From a virus: a DNA stretch of 29,906 bases. The notes beneath the pieces are model-generated. The model did not search any database. It was given only the letters and a program-made list of their open reading frames with translations, and was not told the origin of the DNA. Made by a program: the position numbers and the translations under genes. Positions 1 through 29,906 of the stretch are shown here, piece by piece; the stretch's first letter is position 1; every line of letters starts with the position of its first letter. The stretch spans positions 1-29,906 of the IMG/VR virus record IMGVR_UViG_3300045972_000799, one strand, 5' to 3'.

Positions 1-258
1 CACGCAAAATTGGTAATCATCGCCAAAGCTATCAATGGTGATTGGGTACCAGATTGGACAGATTCAAGTCAATGGAAATATTATCCGTGGTTTGAGATGG
101 GTTCTTCTTCGGGCGTCGGTTTTTCGTACCACGACTACGTTGCTTGGCGTACGTATTCGACTGTCGGCTCGCGCCTTTGCTTTAAATCTTCTGATTTAGC
201 AAAACACGCTGGACAACTTTTTGAACAAGAAATTTATAAACCACTTTTTACAATTTAA
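1..258 (+). CDS. DGR target (variable) protein 1, 5' end outside window
   Basis: Partial gene: the frame is open from base 1 (H-A-K-L-V-I-I...), so the start lies upstream of the window. By comparison with its neighbour about 40 residues are missing. The protein ends in the C-type-lectin-like variable segment typical of Bacteroidetes phage DGR targets (PWFEMGSSSGVGFS ... VGSRLCF). Codons in this segment that align with adenines of the template repeat are the ones that vary. Bases 1-127 are identical to 384-510 of the next gene, so the two are recent tandem copies. The stop at 258 is 2 nt before the next ATG. Family knowledge says such proteins display a ligand-binding face, but the ligand and location here are unknown. 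A 6-bp hairpin sits 3 nt beyond the variable repeat. Confidence 0.9.
   Translation, partial: HAKLVIIAKAINGDWVPDWTDSSQWKYYPWFEMGSSSGVGFSYHDYVAWRTYSTVGSRLCFKSSDLAKHAGQLFEQEIYKPLFTI
101..180 (+). repeat. DGR variable repeat VR1
   Basis: Aligns without gaps to the template repeat at 673-752. There are 14 mismatches, 13 of them at template adenines (TR positions 683, 690, 702, 712, 714, 715, 720, 721, 726, 733, 738, 745, 750). The only other one is G749 to T, at the 3' initiation end. At protein level the asparagine codons of the template become H, A, R, Y and T. The perfect hairpin TAAATC-TTCT-GATTTA follows at 183-198, where DGR targets often have a cruciform. Confidence 0.95.
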
Positions 259-260
259 AA

Positions 261-641
261 ATGAACTACACAGAAATCAAAACATTTGAAGATGCTTGCA
301 ATGCCATTGGACTTCAACAGCCGGAATTAGTAATTCCAGATTTTTTAAGCTTTCCATCAACAGATAGAGAAGCTATGATTGCACACGCAAAATTGGTAAT
401 CATCGCCAAAGCTATCAATGGTGATTGGGTACCAGATTGGACAGATTCAAGTCAATGGAAATATTATCCGTGGTTTGAGATGGGTTCTTCTTCGGGCGTC
501 GGTTTTTCGTTCGACGACTACGATCTTTGGCGTGCGTATTCGACTGTCGGCTCGCGCCTTTGCTTTGAAACAAGAGAAAAAGCGAAGTATGCAGGAACTC
601 AATTTGAAGAATTGTACAAAATCTATTTTGTAAAAGAATAG
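261..641 (+). CDS. DGR target (variable) protein 2, C-type-lectin-like
   Basis: Complete 126-residue protein. The N-terminal half (MNYTEIKTFEDACNAIG..., residues 1-50) is a constant region. The middle (KAINGDWVPDWTDSSQWKYY) leads into the variable face at about residues 73-102 (GSSSGVGFS-FDDYDLWRAYSTVGSRLCF). The pattern of W, G and VGSRLCF is that of small DGR targets common in gut and environmental Bacteroidetes phages, which take the FGE/C-type-lectin fold. The gene starts 2 nt after the paralogue upstream. It ends 31 nt before the template repeat. It is not fused to any tail domain, so how it is displayed is not evident from the sequence. Likely cotranscribed with gene 1. Confidence 0.93.
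   Translation: MNYTEIKTFEDACNAIGLQQPELVIPDFLSFPSTDREAMIAHAKLVIIAKAINGDWVPDWTDSSQWKYYPWFEMGSSSGVGFSFDDYDLWRAYSTVGSRLCFETREKAKYAGTQFEELYKIYFVKE
484..563 (+). repeat. DGR variable repeat VR2
   Basis: Aligns without gaps to the template repeat 673-752 with 15 mismatches. Fourteen are at template adenines (683, 690, 700, 702, 714, 715, 720, 721, 723, 726, 733, 738, 745, 750), and one is the same G749 to T seen in VR1. VR1 and VR2 differ from each other at six positions only (template 700, 702, 712, 714, 715, 723), all of them adenines in the template. No clear 3' hairpin follows this copy. Confidence 0.95.
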
Positions 642-672
642 GAAATTAAGGTTGTGTGATGTCGTTGCTGTA

Positions 673-752
673 GTTCTTCTTCAGGCGTCAGTTTTTCGTA
701 CAACGACTACGATAATTGGAATACGAATTCGAATGTCAGCTCGCACCTGAGC
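673..752 (+). repeat. DGR template repeat (TR)
   Basis: Non-coding 80-nt copy of the variable repeats. It contains 20 adenines, many in AAT/AAC codon positions when read in the target frame (S-Y-N-D-Y-D-N-W-N-T-N-S-N-V), and ends in a stop codon. It lies between the second target gene and the reverse transcriptase on the same strand, the standard layout. Homology to the targets begins abruptly at 673. Its RNA would be copied by the RT with misincorporation opposite adenine, and the cDNA would replace VR1 or VR2. Position 749 (G in TR, T in both VRs) marks the IMH*/IMH difference known from other DGRs. Confidence 0.95.
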
Positions 753-854
753 TAAAAAATATTATACATCACAGGCCTTGCCAACATGGCAAAAAAATAC
801 AAATTAATAGGTTCGTTAGTAATGAAAATGAAAGCGAACCAATCAAAGCAAAGT
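753..854 (+). other. TR-to-RT spacer with two hairpins
   Basis: About 100 nt between the template repeat and the most likely RT start. It holds a hairpin TTGCC-AACAT-GGCAA (778-792) and a 6-bp inverted pair GGTTCG/CGAACC (about 813-843). In the Bordetella phage DGR the equivalent spacer RNA is needed to start cDNA synthesis, so a structured spacer is expected here. That role is inferred from position alone. Confidence 0.45.
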
Positions 855-1817
855 ATGAAACGATTCAAAAATATATACCAACAAATTATTTCACCGGAAA
901 ACTTAATCCTTGCTGAAGCGAAAGCACGCAGAGGCAAAGCCAAACAATATGGTGTTAAGGTTTTTGATAAAAATCCACAAGAAAACCTTGTAGAACTTCA
1001 TAAGATGTTGCTTGAAAAGAATTACCAAACATCAGAATACACCACTTTCAAAATCTTTGAACCAAAAGAAAGGCTAGTTTTTAGATTGCCATACTTTCCT
1101 GATCGCATTACCCATCACGCTGTTATGAATGTTCTGGAGCCAATATTTACCAAATTATTCACAGCTGATACTTACAGTTGTATCAAAGGAAGGGGAATTC
1201 ACGGAGCTGCCAATAATTTAAAAAAAGCATTGAAGGACCAGGAGAATACAAAGTACTGTATGAAACTAGATATTGTCAAGTTCTATCCAAATGTAGATCA
1301 TGAGGTTCTAAAGCAGCTATTTAGAAAAAAGTTTAAGGACCAGGATTTACTTTGGTTGTTGGATGAAATTATTGATAGCGCCGATGGATTGCCAATAGGA
1401 AATTATTTAAGTCAATATTTTGCAAACTATTATCTGACCTATTTTGACCACTGGATTAAAGAAAACAAAGAAGTGAAATATTACTTCAGGTATGCTGATG
1501 ATATTATTATTCTATCGAACAACAAACCACATCTTCACGAGCTGTTGGCAGAAATAAAAAGCTATTTGAATGATAATCTAAAGCTTCAGGTAAAAGGGAA
1601 TTATCAAGTATTCCCAGTTGAAGCACGTGGAATTGATTTCGTTGGGTATAAGTTCTATCACACGCACACATTGCTTAGGAAATCAATCAAAAAAAGATTT
1701 GCCAAAGCAATATCAAAAACAAAAAACAAAGCCACAATAGCCGCTTATTTCGGGTGGGCTAAACATTGCAATTCAAAACACCTATTAAAAAAATTAATAC
1801 CAAATGAACGCATTTAA
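855..1817 (+). CDS. DGR reverse transcriptase
   Basis: RNA-dependent DNA polymerase that would copy the template RNA into mutagenised cDNA. Counting from the ATG at 855, the protein has 320 residues. Seen motifs: motif A with catalytic Asp139 in LDIVKFYPNVD; the DGR-type motif 4 LPIGNYLSQ from residue 179, where group II intron RTs have a QGSP-like sequence; and the YADD box at 213-216. The frame is open further up to an ATG at 786. I chose 855 because MKRFKNIYQQIISPENLILA matches the usual DGR-RT amino terminus and keeps the spacer hairpins non-coding. The length is normal for the family, with no maturase or endonuclease domain. The 3' end overlaps the next gene by 14 nt. No frameshift or lost catalytic residue is visible, so it looks functional. 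Confidence 0.95.
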   Translation: MKRFKNIYQQIISPENLILAEAKARRGKAKQYGVKVFDKNPQENLVELHKMLLEKNYQTSEYTTFKIFEPKERLVFRLPYFPDRITHHAVMNVLEPIFTKLFTADTYSCIKGRGIHGAANNLKKALKDQENTKYCMKLDIVKFYPNVDHEVLKQLFRKKFKDQDLLWLLDEIIDSADGLPIGNYLSQYFANYYLTYFDHWIKENKEVKYYFRYADDIIILSNNKPHLHELLAEIKSYLNDNLKLQVKGNYQVFPVEARGIDFVGYKFYHTHTLLRKSIKKRFAKAISKTKNKATIAAYFGWAKHCNSKHLLKKLIPNERI

Positions 1818-2100
1818 AGATTTAGGAATAAAGGCCCAACCCAACTCATTTGTTGGAGACAAATTGAAATTAGATAAAATTTTAAACCAAGAAATAAAAG
1901 TACTTGAATTTAAAATTGACAAATCAATTAAAAAAGAAAACTCAGATTATTTGACATTACAAATTGAAAAGAATGAAACAAAATATGTTGTTTTTACTAG
2001 TTCAAAAATACTGATGCAAATGATAAGTGAGGTGCCTAAAGATAAATTTCCATTTACAACAACAATAGTAAAAAGCAATGATTATCCTGAATTTACATAG
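1804..2100 (+). CDS. Conserved small protein overlapping DGR RT; accessory candidate
   Basis: A 98-residue protein whose ATG lies inside the last codons of the RT gene, so the two are translationally coupled. It looks beta-rich with alternating charged and hydrophobic residues (KLDKILNQEIKVLEFKI ... KYVVFTSSKILMQMI) and ends FPFTTTIVKSNDYPEFT. There is no signal peptide or membrane segment. It does not resemble Avd, the four-helix accessory factor of many DGRs. No Avd-like gene is seen elsewhere in the visible cassette. Similar short proteins are, to my recollection, found next to Bacteroidetes DGR RTs, but I cannot name a family. A nucleic-acid-binding role is a guess. Confidence 0.75.
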   Translation: MNAFKDLGIKAQPNSFVGDKLKLDKILNQEIKVLEFKIDKSIKKENSDYLTLQIEKNETKYVVFTSSKILMQMISEVPKDKFPFTTTIVKSNDYPEFT

Positions 2101-2130: not shown

Positions 2131-4533
2131 ATGAGTAAAAACAATCAAACCTTAGAGGTTATTTCAATCAATCAGATTGATGTGTCAAAAACAAATCCAA
2201 GAAAGCATTTTGATGAGAATGCGCTTAGGGAATTATCGCAAAGCATAAAAGAGCACGGAATTTTACAGCCGGTGTTAGTCAGGCCGACAAATGATCCAGA
2301 AGAAGGATTCCAGCAATTTGAGTTAGTGTGTGGTGAGAGACGTTATCGTGCTGCCATACTTGCAGAACTAGAAGAGATTCCTGCAAATATCCGAGTTCTA
2401 ACAGATGACGAAGCTTTCGAACTTCAAATTGTGGAGAACCTGGAAAGAAAAGATGTGCATCCACTCGATGAAGCTGATGCTTTCAAAAAGATGCTTGATT
2501 CAGGAAAATATACCATTGCTGATATTGCAGCAAAGATGGCAAAAGCTGAAAGCTTCATAGCGCAACGTTTGAAACTGGTTGACCTCATCGATGATGTTAG
2601 AACCGACTTTATCGCTGGTCATTTGGGAATTGGTCACGCCATTCTGATTGCAAGATGTGACGAATTTAAACAATTAGATATCTACAAAAACGCACAGCCA
2701 TATCGAGAAGGCATACCTGAGTATGGTACTATTTCAGATTTGAAAGAAACTATCGAAGATGATAGTTATCTGTTAACAGAAGCAAAGTTTGACACGGCAG
2801 ATGAGAAGCTGCTTACTGATACATGTGCTTGTACTGTTTGCCCAAAACGCTCAGGAGCTAATCCTGTTCTATTTGAAGATATGGCAGAAGATAGATGCTT
2901 TGATAAAAGTTGTTTTGATAACAAAAACGACGCTTTCTTAGAAAAGGAAGTTGCTAAAATTATTACTGAAGGTAAAAATATAATCTTAGTAGCAGGTTGG
3001 AATAAACCAAGTAAAATGATAATTGATATTTGTTCAAAATTTGGAGTCAACATTTACCAGCAATATACTTGGTATGATCATTTACAAAAGGACAATCAAG
3101 GCAATGAATGGGATTGCGTGAAAGCTTTCGGAGTAACTGGAATTAAAGAAGGAATTTATTTAGATGTTTGGATTAAACCACAAGATGTTGATTCAGTGAA
3201 TAATCGTAAAGCTACATCTGAAGTAATAACAGAAGTGTCAAAAGAAGAGATTGAAGCTAAAGAAGAGATTGCTAAAATTGAAACGAGAGCAGCCAGAGCT
3301 GTAGAATTAGACGGCGAGAAAGTTTGGACCGAAATTCGCGCAATCGATACGTCAGAAATTAAAACTATCATAGGTGGGTTATTTGAAGTTGAAGTTGATG
3401 CTGTTTGTTTGGCTATGATTTCTAAACTGGGTTATTTTGGCAATAGAGAAGTAGAAAAGATTGTAGGTAAATTTAATTTAGAAACTCTTGAAGATAGACA
3501 TTTCACAAATTTTGAGTACAATCAAATTCAAAGAATTTTCTTTTTGTCAATACTTCCAGAAGGATATGGTTCACACATTACCAACATCAATAATTTTGGT
3601 TATACAAAAGCCCTAATGCACTATGAAGCGGAGAAAATAAACAAAATAATTGCTAATCAAAAAGCAGTATCTGATGTGAGAATGGACAAAACTGATACTA
3701 GAATAAAAGCTTTAAAAGCAAAAATTGAAGCTTTTAAACCTATTGAAGAACCAAAAAAGCAAGCTCCGGAAAGAACAGAAGATGAAGTTGAAATTAAGCA
3801 TTTTGTGAATGATGTTAAGGAATTTGATAGAGTAGACAAAAAGTATGCGCTCAATAATTCTTACTTCAAAAACAGAAAGAATACTTATCCTGCCAATCCT
3901 TTAGAAGTTGCAATGTATCACGAACAGCACGGTACTCTTCCATTTGATTACACAGGAACTGATTGGTTGTATGAAACCTATATCGAGTATCAAAAAAAGA
4001 ATAGTGTTTATCATTCTCAATTCTTTACACCGCCAGCAACTGCACAAAGGATTGCATCATTAGCAGACAAATATTTTATTGATCCAAAAGGTGAAGCAAA
4101 TGGTAGACCTTGGGTAATGGATATGTGTTGCGGTTTCGGAATGCTTTCTAAACCAATTAGAGAAAAAGGATTCATTGTGAGAGGATTTGATTTTAGCCAG
4201 GAAATGGTTGACTTGTATAATTTCTCTCAAGACTGCATAGCTGAAAGATGTGATTACGAAAATGATGCAGTAGAACTTTATGACTGGGTTGTTTCTAATC
4301 CTCCTTATGAAGTTCCAAAGCTTACTAAATTCTTTGAACGTTTGCATTTAGATATTTTGGCTGATAATGGAAAAGCAATTATTTTATTGCCAAAAGGATT
4401 TATGCTTAAAGAAAAACCAAAGGCATTAGTTGAAATACTTGAAAAATTCAACATCATTTATTCAGAAGATATGACTGAGGATTTTGCTCACACAAAAATC
4501 AAAGCTGAAATAGTGGTTTTAGAGAAAGCATAA
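2131..4533 (+). CDS. ParB-like domain fused to N6-adenine DNA methyltransferase
   Basis: An 800-residue two-domain protein. Residues about 8-105 are a ParB/Spo0J-type domain (TNPRKHFDENALRELSQSI, then the phosphate-binding GERRYRA at 68-74, then QIVENLERKDVHPLDEA) followed by a KorB-like helical part. A cysteine cluster (CACTVCPKRS ... CFDKSCFDNK) lies around residues 232-270. The C-terminal 180 residues are a class I SAM methyltransferase: motif I DMCCGFG at 664-670 and the catalytic NPPY at 723-726. That motif order, with NPPY, points to adenine-N6 methylation. It probably modifies phage DNA. The ParB part may give sequence-specific loading. A strong terminator follows directly. The 30-nt upstream gap shows no clear promoter. 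Confidence 0.9.
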   Translation: MSKNNQTLEVISINQIDVSKTNPRKHFDENALRELSQSIKEHGILQPVLVRPTNDPEEGFQQFELVCGERRYRAAILAELEEIPANIRVLTDDEAFELQIVENLERKDVHPLDEADAFKKMLDSGKYTIADIAAKMAKAESFIAQRLKLVDLIDDVRTDFIAGHLGIGHAILIARCDEFKQLDIYKNAQPYREGIPEYGTISDLKETIEDDSYLLTEAKFDTADEKLLTDTCACTVCPKRSGANPVLFEDMAEDRCFDKSCFDNKNDAFLEKEVAKIITEGKNIILVAGWNKPSKMIIDICSKFGVNIYQQYTWYDHLQKDNQGNEWDCVKAFGVTGIKEGIYLDVWIKPQDVDSVNNRKATSEVITEVSKEEIEAKEEIAKIETRAARAVELDGEKVWTEIRAIDTSEIKTIIGGLFEVEVDAVCLAMISKLGYFGNREVEKIVGKFNLETLEDRHFTNFEYNQIQRIFFLSILPEGYGSHITNINNFGYTKALMHYEAEKINKIIANQKAVSDVRMDKTDTRIKALKAKIEAFKPIEEPKKQAPERTEDEVEIKHFVNDVKEFDRVDKKYALNNSYFKNRKNTYPANPLEVAMYHEQHGTLPFDYTGTDWLYETYIEYQKKNSVYHSQFFTPPATAQRIASLADKYFIDPKGEANGRPWVMDMCCGFGMLSKPIREKGFIVRGFDFSQEMVDLYNFSQDCIAERCDYENDAVELYDWVVSNPPYEVPKLTKFFERLHLDILADNGKAIILLPKGFMLKEKPKALVEILEKFNIIYSEDMTEDFAHTKIKAEIVVLEKA

Positions 4534-4758: not shown

Positions 4759-5031
4759 ATGGCAACAAAAAACGGAATTGGATATTCTCCATTATCAGAC
4801 AAAGTTTATTTAGGAAAACAGAATACAGAAAAAGGAATGTGGACAGGCGCAAAAGAAGATATTACGCATCAATTTTTAGATGTATCGTTTGCTTATTTTA
4901 AAGAAAATACAATTAGAAATATTGGAAGTTCCAGCGGAAAAGAAAACCTATTTATCAATGTGAAAAATGATAAAGAAGGAATTGAGAAAATTATTAAAAA
5001 CCTCAATAAGCGGTTAGTTGAGCTAACATAG
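4759..5031 (+). CDS. Small hypothetical phage protein inside inverted repeat
   Basis: A 90-residue protein from the ATG at 4759 (MATKNGIGYSPLSDKVYLGK...). The frame is open slightly further up, but the upstream part looks non-coding. It contains SDKVYLGKQNTEKGMWTGAKEDITHQFLDVSFAYF (written here in part: KVYLGKQ and KEDITHQFLD) and a lysine-rich helical C-terminus (EGIEKIIKNLNKRL). There is no signal peptide or membrane segment. I do not recognise a function. The gene is bracketed by 14-nt inverted repeats at 4724-4737 and 5026-5039, the second overlapping its stop codon. This gives it the look of a small cassette. Confidence 0.75.
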   Translation: MATKNGIGYSPLSDKVYLGKQNTEKGMWTGAKEDITHQFLDVSFAYFKENTIRNIGSSSGKENLFINVKNDKEGIEKIIKNLNKRLVELT

Positions 5032-5071
5032 CCAGTAACTATCCGCTAACAGCATAAAATGTATTACAATT

Positions 5072-5254
5072 ATGCAAAAATACACCAAAACAAAGGTTAT
5101 CCGCATTTCAGAAACGCAACTGAAAACACTTCAGAAAATGAAATCCTATAATGTAGATGTTGCAGAATTCATTCGTAATGCAATCAAAGAAAAAATCAAT
5201 AGGGAGTATAAAGATTTAATCCCTAAACCTGAAAAATTAAAAATTCCATTTTAG
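5072..5254 (+). CDS. Ribbon-helix-helix DNA-binding protein
   Basis: A 60-residue protein with the Arc/CopG/MetJ-like layout: a short basic beta strand (TKTKVIRISE) followed by two helices (TQLKTLQKMKSYN and VAEFIRNAIKEKINREY). Such proteins dimerise and bind short palindromes. Its stop codon overlaps the first palindromic operator (5253-5271), and a half-site (TATTAC) lies just upstream of its own start. It is therefore a reasonable candidate for the regulator of that operator family. That link is inference only. The position between two methyltransferase genes suggests control of early/late switching or of the modification genes. Confidence 0.75.
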   Translation: MQKYTKTKVIRISETQLKTLQKMKSYNVDVAEFIRNAIKEKINREYKDLIPKPEKLKIPF

Positions 5255-5287
5255 TAATAATTTGTATTACTAAATTTAATATATTTG
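5253..5287 (+). promoter_or_regulatory. Operator palindrome and -7 element, site 1
   Basis: AGTAATA-ATTTG-TATTACT (5253-5271) followed by a TATATTTG -7 element (5280-5287), 4 nt before the ATG at 5292. The operator differs from site 3 (17124-17142) at one of 19 bases. There is no canonical TTTG -33 box at the usual 19-nt spacing. Confidence 0.65.
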
Positions 5288-5291
5288 AAAA

Positions 5292-5672
5292 ATGAAAACG
5301 AGTTTCACGTTCATTATGACTCTTATCTGTATGGTGAGTTTCACGGCTGGAGCAACTACTACCAAGCCGGAACAAAAGCAAAAAACAGAATTTATCAAAG
5401 GTGTTACAACCCAGATTAATGCTGTAAGTGTAGAAAATCATTACCAAGTTGTATTTGTAAATACAGATGCAAAAATCAAAACAGAATTCAAAGTGAAATC
5501 CTTTGAGGTAAACAAACCCATTACATCCGAAGCAACAAATGACGATGTCGGTTGGAAGGTTTCAAAGAAAAATTACACTAACTATTCCAAAAGTAATTTG
5601 TCAGAAACTAATCGAATACCAATTGTCAGTCTATGCCATAAGACAAAAACAAGGATTAGAAGCGATTGCTAA
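5292..5672 (+). CDS. Hypothetical protein, possibly exported; frame uncertain at 3' end
   Basis: A 126-residue frame with a hydrophobic amino terminus resembling a signal peptide (MKTSFTFIMTLICMVSFTAGA) and a plausible beta-rich middle (HYQVVFVNTDAKIKTEFKVKSFEV). After about residue 85 the composition degrades, and a second frame (from 5539) looks more protein-like. It starts 4 nt after a TATATTTG promoter, so the mRNA would be leaderless or nearly so. A competing frame at the 5' end (ENEFHVHYDSYLYGEFHGWSN...) is also stop-free for 40 codons. The region may therefore hold a decayed or frameshifted gene. No function is recognised. Confidence 0.5.
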   Translation: MKTSFTFIMTLICMVSFTAGATTTKPEQKQKTEFIKGVTTQINAVSVENHYQVVFVNTDAKIKTEFKVKSFEVNKPITSEATNDDVGWKVSKKNYTNYSKSNLSETNRIPIVSLCHKTKTRIRSDC

Positions 5673-5780: not shown

Positions 5781-7235
5781 ATGGAAGCAATTACAATCAG
5801 TTCGCGAATAATTAAAACAATTCCAATCAAATGGATAGACTTAGAATTTATCCAGCAGGAGAATTTTAAAGAGTGGATTGAAGATGCCGACGTAAAACTA
5901 AAGGAATCATTGATTAAGTATCAGTTTGTTGATCCGTTTAAGGTTTGGGAGAATGATGGTAAACTTTATTGTTTGGATGGAAAGCATAGATTTTTAGATT
6001 TGTGCTCATTGGTAGAACTTGGTTATAAAATCCCTGAAGAACTTCCTGCCACTTTTATGAATTGCGATGATATTAATCAGGCCGCCGAATTGGTTTTGGT
6101 TTATTCCAGTGCTTATGCAAAGATTACCCAACAAGGATTGTTTGATTTCGTTTCAAACTTCAATCTTGATATTCCTTCTTTGAAAGATGTGATTAACATT
6201 CCAGAGTTTTCAATGCAACGCTTTGAGCAAAAGTTTGATTTGTTTGACACTCAAAACGGAGAAGAGCCATTTGTTGAAGTTGATGATAAAAATATCATTG
6301 TTGGTCCTGGAGATGTATTTCAACTTAACGGACATCGTTTGATTTGTGGAAGCTTTACCAGCGATGATGATGTCAAAGCTTTGATGCAAGATGATAAAGC
6401 ACGAATTGTCAATTGTGATCCACCTTATAATTTACCTGCTAATTTCTTCACGAACAAAGATGAACAGCGCCATAAAGATTTTGCTATGGGCGCTGGTGAA
6501 ATGACAGACGAGGAGTTTGTTAAGTTCCTTGCTTTGATTATGACCACATCGGTTAATAATTCCGTTCCGGGTGCAATTCATTACATCTTTATGGATTTTC
6601 GACACAGCTGGCATATGACAGAAGCAGCTCGAAGAGTGTATGGTAATCCTCAACCAAAACAAGTTTGCGTTTGGGAAAAGGATTTGTTTGCCAATGGAAG
6701 TTTCTACAGAGCACAGCACGAGCTTTGTTTTATATTCTCGGATGAGAAATCGAAAGCCCTTTGGCAAAAAGATTTAATAGATGAGGGCGGTGAGTTCTAT
6801 AAAAATAATAACGAATGGTGTTTCATTTTTAAGAATGGAGAAGCTGCCAAACATCTTTCGCACCTGGAACTTAAAAACAGAATCCGATCCAATGTTTGGA
6901 AATATCCGAGCGCCACCTCAATGGCAAATCCTGACCGATTCGAACTAAAGAATCATCCAACCCCAAAACCTGTAGTAATGATTGCCGATGCAATCCTTGA
7001 CACAACAAATGAAAACGACATTGTCATTGACTGGTTCCTTGGTTCCGGCACTTGCCTAATCGCTTGCGAGCATACTAACAGACGTGGTCGATTCACAGAA
7101 ATTGAGCCTATGTATGTTCAATCAGCAATCCAACGATATGTTAATTATTGTAATAAACGAAGCATTGATATTAGCTTTACCCACTTAAACGGTAAACTAA
7201 CATTAAAAGACTTTGCAAATGAATCCAAACTATAA
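5781..7235 (+). CDS. ParB-like domain fused to beta-class DNA methyltransferase
   Basis: A 484-residue protein from the ATG at 5781. An in-frame TTG at 5754 overlaps the -7 element and is rejected as start. Residues about 9-75 form a ParB-like nuclease/sulfiredoxin-type domain (KWIDLEFIQ ... KLYCLDGKHRFLDL). The remainder is a methyltransferase with catalytic DPPY at 213-216 well before the SAM-binding DWFLGSGT at 417-424. This is the beta-class order (motif IV, target recognition, then motif I) of CcrM- and Dam-like enzymes, usually N6-adenine. PTPKPV lies between them as expected. It is the second methyltransferase in 5 kb with a different architecture from the first, so they are not duplicates. 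It sits at the head of the packaging operon, downstream of operator site 2. Confidence 0.92.
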   Translation: MEAITISSRIIKTIPIKWIDLEFIQQENFKEWIEDADVKLKESLIKYQFVDPFKVWENDGKLYCLDGKHRFLDLCSLVELGYKIPEELPATFMNCDDINQAAELVLVYSSAYAKITQQGLFDFVSNFNLDIPSLKDVINIPEFSMQRFEQKFDLFDTQNGEEPFVEVDDKNIIVGPGDVFQLNGHRLICGSFTSDDDVKALMQDDKARIVNCDPPYNLPANFFTNKDEQRHKDFAMGAGEMTDEEFVKFLALIMTTSVNNSVPGAIHYIFMDFRHSWHMTEAARRVYGNPQPKQVCVWEKDLFANGSFYRAQHELCFIFSDEKSKALWQKDLIDEGGEFYKNNNEWCFIFKNGEAAKHLSHLELKNRIRSNVWKYPSATSMANPDRFELKNHPTPKPVVMIADAILDTTNENDIVIDWFLGSGTCLIACEHTNRRGRFTEIEPMYVQSAIQRYVNYCNKRSIDISFTHLNGKLTLKDFANESKL

Positions 7236-16855: not shown

Positions 16856-17107
16856 ATGGGAAGTTTAAAAGATATTTATAGCGGTTGGAAATCATATTTA
16901 ATTAATGATCCAATCGCTTTAGAACTTGCAAAAGAAAGAGCTGCTATCTGTTCAGCTTGTGATAAAGCAGAACACGGAACTTTCGAAATATTATTAACAG
17001 ACTTTGAAATAAAAGAAATTCAAGGATTGAAATGTGGCGTTTGCAATTGTCCATTATCAACTGCAACTAGGAGTAAAGATTATCATTGTCCGATTGGACT
17101 TTGGTAA
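16856..17107 (+). CDS. Small Cys-rich (putative zinc-binding) protein
   Basis: An 83-residue protein with six cysteines: CSAC at 32-35, CGVC at 60-63, Cys65 and Cys78. Two CxxC pairs 25 residues apart fit a zinc ribbon. It starts 2 nt after the tape-measure stop, so it is the last gene of the tail operon. Zinc-ribbon-like proteins in this place recur in Bacteroidetes phages, as far as I recall. Its role is unknown. It ends 17 nt before operator site 3. Confidence 0.75.
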   Translation: MGSLKDIYSGWKSYLINDPIALELAKERAAICSACDKAEHGTFEILLTDFEIKEIQGLKCGVCNCPLSTATRSKDYHCPIGLW

Positions 17108-17123
17108 AAAAATTTGATTAGTC

Positions 17124-17149
17124 AGTAATAATTTATATTACTATATTTG
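17124..17149 (+). promoter_or_regulatory. Operator palindrome and -7 element, site 3
   Basis: AGTAATA-ATTTA-TATTACT (17124-17142) merging into TATATTTG (17142-17149). The ATG follows 5 nt later. It is nearly identical to site 1 and has the same geometry as site 2, where the palindrome overlaps the first base of the -7 box. Confidence 0.7.
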
Positions 17150-17154
17150 TAAGG

Positions 17155-17382
17155 ATGTATAAAATTCTCCAGCAATTAGAAGACGTGAATTTACTTGACA
17201 AATTAGTTAAGCAAGGAATTGTCTCTATAACTATTGCTGGGCACAAAATGATTTATGAAGTATATCTCAAGGAATTGAAAACGGTTAAAAAAGCTCAAGC
17301 AATTACAAATACTTCCATCGATACAAAAACACCGGAAAGAACAATCTACAGAATTATTAAAGTGATGGAAGATTCAAAATAA
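17155..17382 (+). CDS. Small helix-turn-helix-like protein
   Basis: A 75-residue protein. The C-terminal part (AQAITNTSIDTKTPERTIYR, then IIKVMED) has the spacing of a helix-turn-helix with the ...PERTIYRII recognition-helix pattern of small Bacteroidetes regulators. The start at 17155 is only 5 nt after a TATATTTG -7 element, so the transcript is probably leaderless. It is isolated from the tail operon by its own promoter and ends converging with the minus-strand gene (9-nt tail-to-tail overlap). It could regulate late genes or the divergent promoter at 17689-17758. Confidence 0.65.
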   Translation: MYKILQQLEDVNLLDKLVKQGIVSITIAGHKMIYEVYLKELKTVKKAQAITNTSIDTKTPERTIYRIIKVMEDSK

Positions 17383-23778: not shown

Positions 23779-24096
23779 ATGGAATCAAAAATAACCTTAG
23801 ACCCTTCTATTGCTTCGACGATTGATATTTCTCCTGTTGGATTTGAAGAGCAAGTTAATATCTATTTCACAGCTAGCGAAAATTGGACTGGTGATTTTGA
23901 ATTTGTGGTCTACAATTCTGCTCAAAAAAACAGATTTGTAAAACCAACAAATGCTTTGACCGTGGTTGAAAAGCGCATGCATTTAGTGATTAATCCAAAA
24001 ATTCAAGGATTGACAGCTACTGCCAATTATTACGAAATTGTGAGTACGACAACCAAAAGGGTAATTTTCAAAGGACTTTTAAATATTGTAAAATGA
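23779..24096 (+). CDS. Small beta-sandwich fibre-cluster protein
   Basis: A 105-residue beta-rich protein (EQVNIYFTASENWTGDFEFVVY) ending with FKGLLNIVK. Size, beta pattern and place immediately before the collagen-like fibre gene (4-nt overlap) fit a BppU-type or fibre-attachment module. This is an inference from context. Confidence 0.65.
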   Translation: MESKITLDPSIASTIDISPVGFEEQVNIYFTASENWTGDFEFVVYNSAQKNRFVKPTNALTVVEKRMHLVINPKIQGLTATANYYEIVSTTTKRVIFKGLLNIVK

Positions 24097-25757
24097 TAGT
24101 AGAAATTACCACAGATTCACCAGACATCGTCTTTGGAAACTCAGGCGAAAAAATGATCGTTACTGTCGATTTGAAAAAAGATGGTATTGATGGACTAAAA
24201 GGTGACACTGGAGAACAAGGTATTCAAGGGGAAAAGGGTGACAAAGGCGACAAAGGAGATACTGGCGACACTGACGCTTACACACAATCTGAAGCAGATA
24301 GTTTATTAGCTAATAAAGTTGACAAAGTTTCAGGAAAATCACTTATTGACGATACTGAAATAGAACGTTTGGCTGATGTTTTCAATTTTGATAACTCAAC
24401 AAACGAAGTAGATTTAGGAAATAAAGTAGATAAAGAATTAGGTCTTAGCTTGTATTCTGATTCATTAACTGACACAAGAGCCAAGCTAAGATACACAGAT
24501 GAAGAGAAGACGAAACTTGCAGCGTTAGACGGTAATCATTTTAGAGGAAAATTTACTAGCGAAGTATTGTTAAGTGCTATTACTGGTATCATTGGAGATT
24601 ATGCAGCAGTAGATTTAGGAGTTGGAAGCGATGTGATTGGATACATTTGGGATGACAACGATAATATTTGGGTAAAGCAATTAGGAAGTTCTACTGCAGA
24701 AACTCCAGCAAGTATCAAAAGCAAATATGAAAGCAATGCGGACACAAACTCATTGACTGATATTTTAAAGTCAAATTTCATATCAGCTTACAACTGGATA
24801 GCTACTAATGGAGCAAGTTTATTAGGTCATTTGTCAAGCAATTCTAATCCACATAACGTAACCGCTTCTCAAGTTGGTGCGCCAAGTGGAAGTGGAACTT
24901 CTAGCGGAAGTAATACAGGTGACAATGCCGCTAACTCATTATACAGTGGTTTAGCTTCGAGTAAAGAAGATGCAAGCAACAAATCTACGTCAACTTCTGA
25001 AAGTGCGAGTAGTGTAAAGTTTCCTGTTTGGAGTGCTATTTTATCTTATTTTGATGCTGCAAGAATTAGAACAATTTTAGGAATTATAACTTTAAGTGGA
25101 AGTAACACTGGAGACCAAGATGAGAATTCAATTTACGTTACACATGATTTTCTAAACATTGCCGGTGACAGCAATTGGACTCTTGCTTCAATTCTTTCAG
25201 GAACTTTTGCAAGTAATACTACGAATGTCACGGTTAACAATCCAGGAGTAGGTAGAGTAACATCGTCAACAACACCAAACAGTGGTTATCAAGTCAAGAA
25301 CGCAGGAACTAATATGAAACTTAAAGGCGGTGAGGTTTTTACCGAAATCATCAATCCTTTAACGTTCACAAATACAACTTTTAGATTTGGCGAAATGGAC
25401 GCATTTTCCTCCATCGATGCTACTAATGGAATTTATTGTGAATATGCAAATTCAGGAGCCTTAGCTTTAAAAACTGCTAATGCTGGCAATAGAACAAGTG
25501 TAACAGTTGGTACTTTATCTTTAAATAACTGGTACAAACTTAGAGTTACTGTCAATCCAACTGCTACAAGTGTTGTTGCAGAACTATTTAATAATGTAGG
25601 AGCTTTAATAGCTACTAGCGCTCCAATTACAACTAATATCCCGTCAAATTCAACGTTGATGAACGTTGGTTTTGTTGTTACCAATAGTGGTTCAACAGCT
25701 ACTGCATTGTTGGATGTAGACCTTATAAATTTAAAATTAAATAACCTAACAAGATAA
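24093..25757 (+). CDS. Collagen-like tail fibre with lectin-like C-terminus
   Basis: A 554-residue trimeric fibre candidate. A short beta module is followed by a collagen-like Gly-X-Y run (about residues 31-59: GLKGDTGEQGIQGEKGDKGD...). Next come coiled and fibre repeats (HLSSNSNPHNVTASQVGAPS, then two SGSNTGD motifs). The last ~190 residues form a jelly-roll/concanavalin-like domain (WYKLRVTVNPTATSVVAELF). Such fibres carry the receptor-binding tip. Notably this gene, not the DGR targets, is the obvious adsorption protein, and it contains no VR copy. Confidence 0.85.
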   Translation: MIVEITTDSPDIVFGNSGEKMIVTVDLKKDGIDGLKGDTGEQGIQGEKGDKGDKGDTGDTDAYTQSEADSLLANKVDKVSGKSLIDDTEIERLADVFNFDNSTNEVDLGNKVDKELGLSLYSDSLTDTRAKLRYTDEEKTKLAALDGNHFRGKFTSEVLLSAITGIIGDYAAVDLGVGSDVIGYIWDDNDNIWVKQLGSSTAETPASIKSKYESNADTNSLTDILKSNFISAYNWIATNGASLLGHLSSNSNPHNVTASQVGAPSGSGTSSGSNTGDNAANSLYSGLASSKEDASNKSTSTSESASSVKFPVWSAILSYFDAARIRTILGIITLSGSNTGDQDENSIYVTHDFLNIAGDSNWTLASILSGTFASNTTNVTVNNPGVGRVTSSTTPNSGYQVKNAGTNMKLKGGEVFTEIINPLTFTNTTFRFGEMDAFSSIDATNGIYCEYANSGALALKTANAGNRTSVTVGTLSLNNWYKLRVTVNPTATSVVAELFNNVGALIATSAPITTNIPSNSTLMNVGFVVTNSGSTATALLDVDLINLKLNNLTR

Positions 25758-26975: not shown

Positions 26976-28238
26976 TTAAACCGTTATTCTTTTCAAAATT
27001 TCATTTTTTCTTTTGGTTCTGCCAGTGGTATAAACCCCATGAGTAATTTTATCAGTTCTGTGGCTTGCCATTTCTTTTGCTGTATTGATTTCTGTATCAT
27101 TAATTGAGTCTAACAAGTCCAGAAAGTTGTGTTTCATTGAATAAAAGTCCGCGGTTATACTTTCGTACTCAAAATCATTTTCTTTGTCTAATTCTGCCTT
27201 TAATCGAATAGCTCCATCTTTGATTACTATCTTATTTTTTACGTGAGTTCTCCAGCGAATTGTAATTTGTTTAGCGCAATTCTTTTCAGGTCCTGGAACT
27301 AATCCATACGAAAAAAGAAAGTCGTCTTTTGATTTACACATTTGGATAATTTCAGTCCAAAACGGGATTGCATTTTTAATTATGATTTTAGTTTCCCAAA
27401 CATACTGCTTTCCTTTCTTAATCAGGACGTCATATTCCTGTTTTTCCAATCTAATATGTTTTCTTTGAACTGTAAACAACTCTGTACTTCTTGCTCCGGA
27501 ATAAAAAAACACTTTCCCATAACGGTAAAATTCATAATGATTAACTCTTAGGTGCTCCAGAACCAAGTCCAAAGAATCCATCTCGAGAACTTCGCGTTGA
27601 TTCTTTACAATTACTCTTTTTTGGATGTCCCGGGTTAAATTAGTTTCGCAGCATTCGTATTCAATTAATTCTTTGAATAGACTTGAAAAGTAAGCTTTGA
27701 ACTTGTTGAAATAGTTATCGGTTAGGTTGAGGAAATCAAAAATTTCTTTGAGTTCACTTCTACGGAATTTGTAAATAGTAATTTCAGACATTCGAAGCTT
27801 CTTTACTGCCTTCTCAAATCGATTAATAGCATATTCAATTTGCTTCAGGTGCTCAGGAGATCCTTTAATTTTTGAATGAGCTAATCGGAAAGCTTCAATG
27901 ATTAATAAATCAGGGTGCATTATTCCTTTTGGCTTTTCAGGTTTAGCCGCTATATATTTTTTAGTATATGGATTGTAACCTAAATTCTTGAGAGCGTTTA
28001 ACTCATCTTCTAAAATTGTTTTGGTTACATTTCTTCTATTATCCAAATCGCGATAAGAGTTCATTCCTTTTATGACTACTGGGTGAGTTGGTTTAGGAAA
28101 TTCAGGATCGTAGAAATAATATTGAATTTGCCAGTCTTTTTTCAGAGCTGACTTATTACAAGTTTTCCAGTTTTTTGGATTAACTGAAGGTGTACTGCAA
28201 GAGCAACCATTTGGTAAAAGGATTTTGTTGTTTTTCAT
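26976..28238 (-). CDS. int: Tyrosine recombinase / phage integrase
   Basis: A 420-residue integrase. Residues about 100-200 form the core-binding helical domain. The catalytic domain has Arg250 (FFYSGARSTEL), a beta-turn Lys near 274-277, His393 (MASHRT) and the nucleophile Tyr403 (THGVYTTG), ten residues after His393. Box II is unusual: where most family members read H-x-x-R-H, this has Y366-S-M-K369-H370, so the second Arg is replaced by Lys. The rest of the domain is intact, so this is probably a divergent active subgroup. It points away from the tRNA, whose 3' side it borders, as expected for an integrase next to its attachment site. Its upstream region carries an 8-bp inverted repeat that may be an operator or arm site. 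Confidence 0.93.
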   Translation of the reverse strand: MKNNKILLPNGCSCSTPSVNPKNWKTCNKSALKKDWQIQYYFYDPEFPKPTHPVVIKGMNSYRDLDNRRNVTKTILEDELNALKNLGYNPYTKKYIAAKPEKPKGIMHPDLLIIEAFRLAHSKIKGSPEHLKQIEYAINRFEKAVKKLRMSEITIYKFRRSELKEIFDFLNLTDNYFNKFKAYFSSLFKELIEYECCETNLTRDIQKRVIVKNQREVLEMDSLDLVLEHLRVNHYEFYRYGKVFFYSGARSTELFTVQRKHIRLEKQEYDVLIKKGKQYVWETKIIIKNAIPFWTEIIQMCKSKDDFLFSYGLVPGPEKNCAKQITIRWRTHVKNKIVIKDGAIRLKAELDKENDFEYESITADFYSMKHNFLDLLDSINDTEINTAKEMASHRTDKITHGVYTTGRTKRKNEILKRITV

Positions 28239-28240
28239 TT

Positions 28241-28289
28241 TTGTAGCAAAAAATTATTGACGTTTTTATGGACGATAATGATGCTACAA
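28241..28289. repeat. Inverted repeat upstream of integrase
   Basis: TTGTAGCA (28241-28248) and TGCTACAA (28282-28289), perfect inverted 8-mers separated by 33 nt and flanking the integrase promoter area. They could be regulator half-sites or integrase binding sites. No second copy of either type is placed elsewhere in the window. Confidence 0.4.
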
Positions 28290-28302
28290 TGCTGATGTTT
28301 GT

Positions 28303-28347
28303 TAAAAAAATAAACGGCAATCCTTTGTGGTGTTGGATTGCCGTTTT
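28303..28347 (-). terminator. Terminator of tRNA-Asn
   Basis: Perfect 12-bp stem AAACGGCAATCC / GGATTGCCGTTT (28312-28323 and 28335-28346) directly after the tRNA on the minus strand, followed by a run of T on that strand. Confidence 0.85.
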
Positions 28348-28348
28348 G

Positions 28349-28422
28349 CTCCCTCTCTTGGGCTCGAACCAAGGACCCTCTGATTAACAGTCAGATGCTC
28401 TAACCAACTGAGCTAAGAAGGA
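28349..28422 (-). tRNA. tRNA-Asn (anticodon GTT)
   Basis: Minus-strand sequence folds as a canonical cloverleaf: a 7-bp acceptor stem (TCCTTCT with AGAGGGA), D arm TTAGCTCAGTTGGTTAGAGC (AGCTCAGTTGGTTAGAGC core), anticodon loop CTGTTAA giving GTT, T loop GGTTCGAGCC, discriminator G as expected for Asn. CCA is not encoded. Phage DNA starts on its 3' side, so the gene is the probable attachment target, kept intact after integration. Confidence 0.95.
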
Positions 28423-28559: not shown

Positions 28560-29906
28560 TTATTTCCCTACAATTGCCTTGTAGATGTCATTCCCATTGG
28601 CAAACAACAACAAAGCGATAAGTAGAAAGAAACCAACCATTTGAGCATTCTCTAAGAACTTGTCACTTGGTTTTCTGCCGCTAATCATTTCGTATAACAA
28701 AAACACCACATGGCCACCATCAAGTGCTGGAATAGGCAATAAATTCATTACTCCTAGCATTATCGACAACAAAGCGGTAATATTCCAGAACACTTCCCAG
28801 CTCCAACTGCTTGGGAAAATGTTAAAAATTGCTGCAAATCCACCCACCCCTTTATAAGCACCTGTGTCTGGATTGAAAATCAATTTTAACTGTTTTCCAT
28901 AACCCATTAGCTGGTCTTTTCCTTTTTCGAGTCCTACAGGTATTGATTCAATAAAGCTATAGTTTTCTTTGCTAAATTTATAATAGCCTAATTTCTCCAG
29001 GTTATCCTCTGTCAAAGATCCCAAACCAACACCTAATTTGCCTTCGTTATTGACTTCAACCGTAATAGGAGTTTCTTTTAGATTTCTTAAAACTACAGCA
29101 GGTATTTTTTTGCCTTTATTGGACTTTAAAACGACAGCGGCTTGATCAAAATATTTTATAGGAGTTCCATTTAAAGAAACAATCATATCTTTTGGTTTTA
29201 AAACTTCTTTATTTTTAGAAGTATCAGAAAGCGCGCCCACTACAAAAGGCATTCTTAAAGTAATCACCCCTTTTTTATCGGAATCTAAAAATTTACCAAT
29301 AAAATTTACGGGCATATTGATTGTCATTTCCTCGCCATTTCTTTTAACAAGGACAACTTTTGAGGTTAAAATATCCATAGATACTGAGGGAACAAATCGT
29401 TCTACTTTTTTACCATCAATCGATACAATTTGATCTCCAGTTTTGATTCCTGCATTTTCTACGACAGGACTAGTAACCCAAATACCATCATTTAAAGAGC
29501 TGTTATCAATATAATTATCACCATAGCTAAATGCCATTCCTATATAAATGATAAACGCTAAGATAAAGTTAACGGTAACACCGCCCAACATAATAATCAA
29601 ACGTTGCCAAGCAGGTTTAGAACGAAATTCCCAAGGTTGTGGAGGCAAAGCCATTTGTTCCTTGTCCATACTTTCGTCAATCATCCCTGATATTTTTACA
29701 TAGCCACCCAAAGGCAACCAACCAATTCCATACTCGGTTTCGCCAATTTTCTTTTTGAACAAAGAATATTTGACGTCAAAAAACAAGTAGAATTTTTCTA
29801 CTCTAGTTTTAAATATTTTGGAAGGAATAAAATGTCCTAATTCGTGTAGTATAATTAGTAATGATAAGCTCAATAAAAATTGAGAAAGCTTGATAACTAT
29901 TTCCAT
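28560..29906 (-). CDS. rseP: RIP metalloprotease RseP (site-2 protease)
   Basis: Complete 448-residue chromosomal gene; the ATG is the last three bases of the window. It cleaves transmembrane substrates such as anti-sigma factors during envelope stress. Seen: membrane helix with the zinc-binding HELGH at residues 21-25; a second membrane helix near MLGGVTVNFILAFIIYIGM; PDZ-type region (SPVVENAGIKTGDQIVSIDG) and a second one (KPKDMIVSLNGTPIKYF); and the C-terminal zinc ligand in NLLPIPALDGGH (Asp396) before a final membrane helix. Length and layout match Flavobacteriaceae RseP. It is the host gene that marks the prophage right flank. Confidence 0.97.
   Translation of the reverse strand: MEIVIKLSQFLLSLSLLIILHELGHFIPSKIFKTRVEKFYLFFDVKYSLFKKKIGETEYGIGWLPLGGYVKISGMIDESMDKEQMALPPQPWEFRSKPAWQRLIIMLGGVTVNFILAFIIYIGMAFSYGDNYIDNSSLNDGIWVTSPVVENAGIKTGDQIVSIDGKKVERFVPSVSMDILTSKVVLVKRNGEEMTINMPVNFIGKFLDSDKKGVITLRMPFVVGALSDTSKNKEVLKPKDMIVSLNGTPIKYFDQAAVVLKSNKGKKIPAVVLRNLKETPITVEVNNEGKLGVGLGSLTEDNLEKLGYYKFSKENYSFIESIPVGLEKGKDQLMGYGKQLKLIFNPDTGAYKGVGGFAAIFNIFPSSWSWEVFWNITALLSIMLGVMNLLPIPALDGGHVVFLLYEMISGRKPSDKFLENAQMVGFFLLIALLLFANGNDIYKAIVGK

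Follow-up and report, generated by a model that had tools for sequence, protein, structure and literature searches.

The left end of a viral contig raises the question of whether one template repeat diversifies two neighbouring genes there, and by what machinery. The contig (IMG/VR record IMGVR_UViG_3300045972_000799) is 29,906 bases long, and the whole of it, called the window below, was analysed. A first-pass annotation had placed in positions 1–1817 a diversity-generating retroelement (DGR) with two tandem targets, active now or recently. The cassette in fact continues past 1817, to the end of a further ORF (orf98) at 2100; this ORF, and a spacer RNA ahead of the reverse transcriptase (RT) gene, had been missed. 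The cassette is made up of the following features.

1–258 (+): target gene A, 3′ part, 85 codons, truncated by the contig start
101–180 (+): variable repeat 1 (VR1), ungapped alignment to the template repeat at 673–752
261–641 (+): target gene B, 126 aa, phrog_11581 family (E 2.6e-30), no Pfam domain
484–563 (+): variable repeat 2 (VR2), ungapped alignment to the template repeat at 673–752
673–752 (+): template repeat (TR), non-coding, with an adenine pattern (almost) invariant across related loci
700–733 (+): mutable core of the TR, 15 adenines in 10 codons
738–752 (+): 3′ edge of the TR, IMH*-like; A738, A745, G749 and A750 differ from all or nearly all VRs
754–854 (+): predicted spacer RNA (Sp-like), conserved hairpins 778–782/788–792 and 810–817/833–840
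855–1817 (+): DGR reverse transcriptase, 320 aa, ORF open from 786
1804–2100 (+): orf98, 98 aa, overlapping the RT stop; predicted SSB-like OB fold, candidate DGR accessory protein

Template and variable repeats

Recomputing the 80 nt alignment of the TR with each VR returned the counts given in the first-pass annotation: of the 20 template adenines, 13 are changed in VR1 and 14 in VR2, against 1 of the 60 other bases (G749 in each). The bias towards adenine is strong in both repeats (Fisher test, p = 3e-9 for VR1 and 4e-10 for VR2). VR1 and VR2 differ from one another at six positions, each of them a template adenine (p = 1.3e-4). Both VRs lie inside coding genes, and the TR is non-coding and invariant.

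The reading of all these changes as hypermutation needed trimming. Across 25 VRs from 13 loci, A683, A690, A738, A745 and A750 are replaced by a constant or nearly constant base, as is G749 (by T), and by this pattern of conservation the six sites are fixed TR/VR edge differences rather than products of hypermutation. The hypermutation counts of 13 and 14 of 20 were therefore cut to those of the core at 700–733, where 8 (VR1) and 9 (VR2) of the 15 adenines are changed and 0 of the 20 other bases. As 9 of the 15 core positions are shared between VR1 and VR2, neither count is wholly independent of the other. The fixed difference at A683, a synonymous site, cannot be put down to selection on the protein, and A683 probably lies outside the segment that is usually replaced. 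Five of the ten core codons are AAY, and the core could specify about 7.8e8 proteins. The differences at the 3′ edge (738, 745, 749 and 750) would fit an IMH/IMH* pair, by analogy with known DGRs. TR bases G749 and A750 close a hairpin (739–742/749–752), and the VR sequence cannot form the same hairpin.

Spacer RNA and reverse transcriptase

The hairpins predicted between the TR and the RT gene are well conserved among relatives, with 97.6% of cells paired against 27–45% in slid controls, and they covary (17 double-change cells against 5 in shuffles). One related locus (L011, 8922–9062) carries a 20 bp palindrome (GTCCCGATAGCTATCGGGAC) inserted in the loop of a spacer hairpin; it lengthens the stem and so supports the hairpin. 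The Rfam family RT-17 matches window positions 774–855 with 36.8 bits, short of its 40.4-bit gathering score (E 1e-5 for a 301 nt query), and exceeds that score directly upstream of the RT in four relatives (L050, L070, L073 and L079). In Rfam, RT-17 and RT-14 are candidate RNAs beside reverse transcriptases, whereas the placement of RT-17 here, between TR and RT, identifies it as the 3′ spacer of the DGR template RNA in this clade. The spacer found at the same position in Bordetella phage BPP-1 recruits the RT-Avd complex and primes cDNA synthesis (PMC12875486).

The RT frame is open from 786. The stretch 786–854 carries in-frame stops in many relatives, which places the RT start at 855, where a conserved M is found. 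From there the ORF is intact and contains LPIGNYLSQ (1389–1415) and YADD (1491–1502), corresponding to the GxxxSQ and YxDD motifs of DGR RTs. Its best match among solved structures is 8ub7 (E 2.5e-45; next 5e-15), one of a series (8ub7–8ube) that we take to be the BPP-1 DGR RT. The dN/dS of the RT against three relatives (L004, L005 and L016) is 0.04–0.08. The DGR-type RT of the first-pass annotation, with both motifs, is thus present; what changes is the layout around it, with the start at 855, spacer RNA at 754–854 and a cassette that runs on to 2100.

Related loci and evidence of activity

Searches with target B, the RT and the TR pattern gave 31 loci from viral contigs, 80 loci from genomes (mostly of Bacteroidota) and 23 stretches (several from contigs already found), respectively; an exact 36 nt stretch of the window had no match in the viral contigs searched. 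Loci that share the target family are laid out as target A, target B, TR, RT, orf98. Tandem targets number two in 45 loci and three in 12.

The 13 loci closest to the window together have 25 VRs, in which 239 of 373 core adenines depart from the template, compared with 2 of 502 other bases (p ~1e-113, the loci being related and the events not independent). The adenine pattern of the TR is almost invariant among these loci. Where a TR has acquired a lineage-specific non-adenine change, the same change recurs in the VRs of its own locus in 71 of 71 cases, the outcome expected of repeated copying from TR to VR, and more loci with the same concerted pattern were found beyond the 13. Two relatives (L075 and L076) are identical over about 2.4 kb around the cassette save for 15 VR positions, and all 15 are template adenines. 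Comparison of related strains, which the first-pass annotation had proposed as a check, thus shows VR variation at template adenines, and its central claim of a DGR with two tandem targets is borne out by the target–target–TR–RT order in dozens of loci, by invariant TRs, by VRs that vary only at TR adenines and evolve in concert with the TR, and by the conservation and structural match of the RT. The claim of present or recent activity holds in part: the adenine-only differences between VR1 and VR2 stand as evidence, and the identical constant regions of the two targets are uninformative, as set out below. Direct evidence of recent activity comes from the sequences of L075 and L076, not from the window contig, and we infer mutagenic homing in the window phage itself by comparison with relatives.

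Bases 1–127 of the window, at the contig end, match bases 384–510 of gene B exactly, and the identity breaks off where the first variable base is reached. Gene A ends in a tail (184–258) of the A paralogue type, as in relatives. A length of 127 is a common largest k-mer of assemblers. An unrelated viral contig (L021) likewise starts with 127 bases (1–127) that recur before the VR of its second target (378–504). Apart from this signature, other tandem pairs have diverged and are 51–78% identical in the matching region (properly aligned pairs, a few badly aligned ones being left out). Because its length is that of a standard k-mer, it lies at a contig end and it recurs in L021, the identity is no evidence of recency; counting it as a recent duplication was dropped, and with it the use of the identical regions as a sign of activity.

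Three other explanations of the locus were weighed against these data. Gene A could be a real hybrid, with a B-type 5′ part and an A-type tail, produced by unequal crossing-over within the VRs and giving a tandem unit of 383 bp. The exact match joined to an A-type tail would suit such an event, as would the arrays of three targets in relatives, but the k-mer length at a contig end, the same signature in unrelated L021 and the divergence of other pairs make an assembly graph that joined B-type upstream sequence to gene A the likelier cause, and a true hybrid is unlikely, if still worth keeping in view. A decayed or silent DGR, in which the TR/VR differences record past activity only, is a much slimmer prospect. 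For the window contig, it is true, the divergence is read from one assembled sequence rather than from polymorphism data, VR1 and VR2 share those nine core positions, and an assembly overlap probably accounts for the identical 127 nt. Against this, the RT is intact and under strong purifying selection, the TR is invariant and its changes are carried into the VRs at every locus, and near-identical relatives differ only at VR adenines. The element might instead be another kind of RT (a retron, a defence RT or a group II intron) beside a chance repeat family, and RT models of group II introns and of Drt3a do match the protein. Those matches fall far under the curated cut-offs where such are given (118 against 300 bits, 84 against 200), the BPP-1 DGR RT is the best solved match by 30 orders of magnitude, and the adenine-only TR/VR pattern at all loci already refutes this reading, to which we give virtually no credence.

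orf98 and its linkage to the RT

In the predicted structure of orf98 (pLDDT 89), strands and helix follow one another as in an OB fold. Its best matches in VIA include bacterial and mitochondrial SSBs, with Z of about 6 (best 6.9). Foldseek returned no match to the model at E <= 0.001, and no significant match to the sequence was found in Pfam, NCBIfam, PADLOC or PDB sequences; in PHROGs it matches phrog_19665 (unknown function; E 1e-8). Given these middling Z scores and the lack of a Foldseek hit or PDB sequence match, the modelled SSB-like OB fold is likely, not certain.

An orf98 gene lies beside the RT in 71 of 71 loci with an RT identity of at least 60% (counting loci with room to see orf98, and including the duplicates L006/L007, L015/L035 and L016/L115), in 14 of 16 loci at 45–60% and in 1 of 11 below 45%. 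It is absent at L092 and L093 (RT 49%) and was not found at L141 (RT 63%), a locus outside the 71/71 count. A change of target family, or of phage type, does not separate the gene from the RT. Its position varies between sub-lineages: it may overlap the RT at its downstream end, lie 300–1200 nt downstream, or stand upstream, between VR and TR (L068, L073, L075, L079, L082, L084 and L096). Among 395 Bacteroidia genomes there were seven matches to orf98, six of them directly adjoining the RT or forming one protein with it; the seventh, a weak one (G366, E 3e-4), lies in an unrelated non-RT ORF and was dropped. In two genomes (G084 and G205), each with a TR/VR pair at the locus, the RT protein has orf98 as its C-terminal part.

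The fusion in G205 (L138, 6870–8180) joins an orf98-like domain to an RT whose TR/VR pair (within L138, 3–6296) has 14 adenine differences and 0 others; the VR is inside an ORF of >2000 codons. In G084 (L139, 6172–7446, minus strand), RT and orf98 share one frame of 425 codons, which adjoins a phrog_11581-type target.

The window cassette contains no Avd-type ORF. The Avd family (PF05635) was found at none of the DGR loci of 13 genomes, though it is present elsewhere in most of the host genomes, and in none of 101 ORFs neighbouring DGRs, a search that may miss diverged Avd. From its linkage to the RT, its fusions with the RT and the lack of Avd at these loci, orf98 is taken as a candidate DGR accessory subunit, which may bind the RT, the template RNA or the cDNA. 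It might instead be a mere phage SSB-type gene that happens to lie beside the RT. SSB genes are common in early phage regions, the fold is SSB-like, and orf98 diverges faster than the RT in some pairs (47% identity to L004, while the RT has 96%). Such a bystander would hardly be expected to follow the RT across phage types, target families and three positions, to have true matches only at DGRs in 395 genomes, or to be fused to the RT, and we consider this account improbable.

Target proteins

Family phrog_11581, to which target B belongs, is of unknown function in PHROGs. The model of target B is helical, with low confidence in the VR stretch (pLDDT 43). Comparison with the PDB (Foldseek, VIA and sequence) gave no useful match, so that target B may or may not have the usual DGR lectin fold, and in BFVD only uncharacterised phage proteins matched. 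Compared with L004, target B has a dN/dS of 0.03 outside the VR; inside the VR, dN is 0.24 and dS is 0.

L009 and its relatives are Mu-type phages (Portal_Mu, Phage_Mu_F) with the cassette among their early genes; in L022 it lies near a primase and in L004 near an SMC-like ATPase. A target homologue without a DGR is found among DNA-modification genes of Phocaeicola phage PV4-TP1. Because the cassette neighbours early genes in unrelated temperate phages, the targets look like small early-region proteins rather than tail parts, a reading of gene context with which a virion destination would still be compatible. Our hypothesis is that they have their effect within the host cell, at an early stage of infection or during lysogeny.

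Target-family homologues with no DGR RT detected nearby occur in L144 (PV4-TP1, 5881–6465), L026 and L027. In L062, extra copies of the target family (4818–5557 and 16886–17230) are separated from the DGR by several kb within one genome region.

Genomic context and host

The cassette of the window precedes a ParB-methyltransferase gene and a terminase gene. The former (2131–4533) is a single ORF in which ParB N-terminal and HTH domains are joined to a C-terminal methyltransferase-like part. Towards the right end, the contig carries an integrase gene (26976–28238), a tRNA-Asn gene (28348–28422) and a host rseP-like gene (28560–29906). The integrase adjoins the tRNA (26976–28422), a likely attachment site, and the host gene lies beyond. 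The RseP of the window shares 73% identity with its counterpart in Flavobacterium sp. AED (G001), which is among the two best of 249 Flavobacteriaceae genomes, so the host is probably a member of the Flavobacteriaceae. The best explanation of the DGR region is that it is the left end of a prophage contig from such a host.

A collagen-like tail fibre with an SO2946-like C-terminal domain is encoded at 24093–25757. No VR was found in this gene, which means that its product is not a target of the DGR.

Discussion

To our knowledge, the DGR mechanism is known almost only from BPP-1 (mtd, avd, TR, brt), in which Avd is essential. The window resembles BPP-1 in its adenine-specific TR/VR differences, in a TR just upstream of the RT, in a structured spacer between them, and in 3′ edge differences that recall IMH* and IMH; the BPP-1 RT (8ub7) is also the nearest solved relative of the window RT. 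It differs in having no Avd at the locus and an ORF with an SSB-like OB fold in its place, in diversifying at least two tandem targets, each about 126 aa long and encoded in an early module, rather than a tail fibre, in the 24 residues that follow the VR in the target, and in that no clear stem-loop of the BPP-1 type was noticed directly after the VR.

DGRs in phages of Bacteroidota, and DGRs with two targets, are already known (PMC6199706, PMC8143477, PMC10743442, PMC6642488). In the Bacuni phages (PMC8143477) and the tentaclin phages nd4 and nd12 (PMC10743442), phages of gut bacteria that in part infect Bacteroides, one TR likewise serves two VRs, but the targets are of adhesin or lectin type and Bacuni has Avd, whereas the window targets are small, adjacent phrog_11581 paralogues. 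Small genes linked to the DGR RT are also known for the accessory proteins Avd, HRDC and MSL (PMC10053308), from which orf98 differs in having no Pfam match and in being modelled as an OB fold. PMC10053308 mentions one more suggested accessory protein, with no Pfam or CDD entry (its reference 12, apparently Wu et al. 2018). Neither an OB-fold DGR accessory protein nor the phrog_11581 target family is named in the open literature that we found. The additional accessory protein that Wu et al. 2018 seemingly put forward could be orf98, which may thus have been noticed before.

Taken as a whole, the locus is in all likelihood a DGR that copies its TR into the VRs of two tandem targets, and that belongs to a lineage apparently using an OB-fold partner, not Avd. 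The mechanism we propose builds on the anatomy, adenine specificity, concerted TR/VR evolution, RNA covariation and RT conservation established above, together with the RT-orf98 linkage, the natural fusions and the lack of Avd-type genes at the loci. The RT would copy TR RNA, with its structured 3′ spacer, into cDNA and make errors at template adenines, and this cDNA would replace the 15-adenine VR core in two tandem small targets (two or three in relatives), so that a loop in which ten residues vary could take about 8e8 forms. The differences fixed at the 3′ edge would act like IMH*/IMH and would confine the hairpin to the template RNA. The orf98 protein, probably translated together with the RT, would most likely bind the RT, the template RNA or single-stranded cDNA, and would promote cDNA synthesis or homing.

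Identity of k-mer length at VRs is an assembly pitfall to avoid in metagenomic DGRs. The Rfam family RT-17 gains a likely role, as the spacer of a DGR template RNA. As a tentative wider reading, and one that could well fail, a large Bacteroidota DGR lineage may have swapped Avd for a dedicated OB-fold RT partner that binds single-stranded nucleic acid and works with the RT, at times as one fused protein, in cDNA synthesis or homing, with an environmental branch that diversifies small non-virion early proteins of temperate phages towards an intracellular partner, not a receptor. If an OB-fold partner does replace Avd, its natural fusions with the RT would allow the part of the accessory protein in cDNA synthesis to be asked about, and the lineage would also offer a way to ask how the cDNA enters the target. 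Small early targets in unrelated temperate phages would, in turn, call into question the rule that phage DGRs diversify receptor binding.
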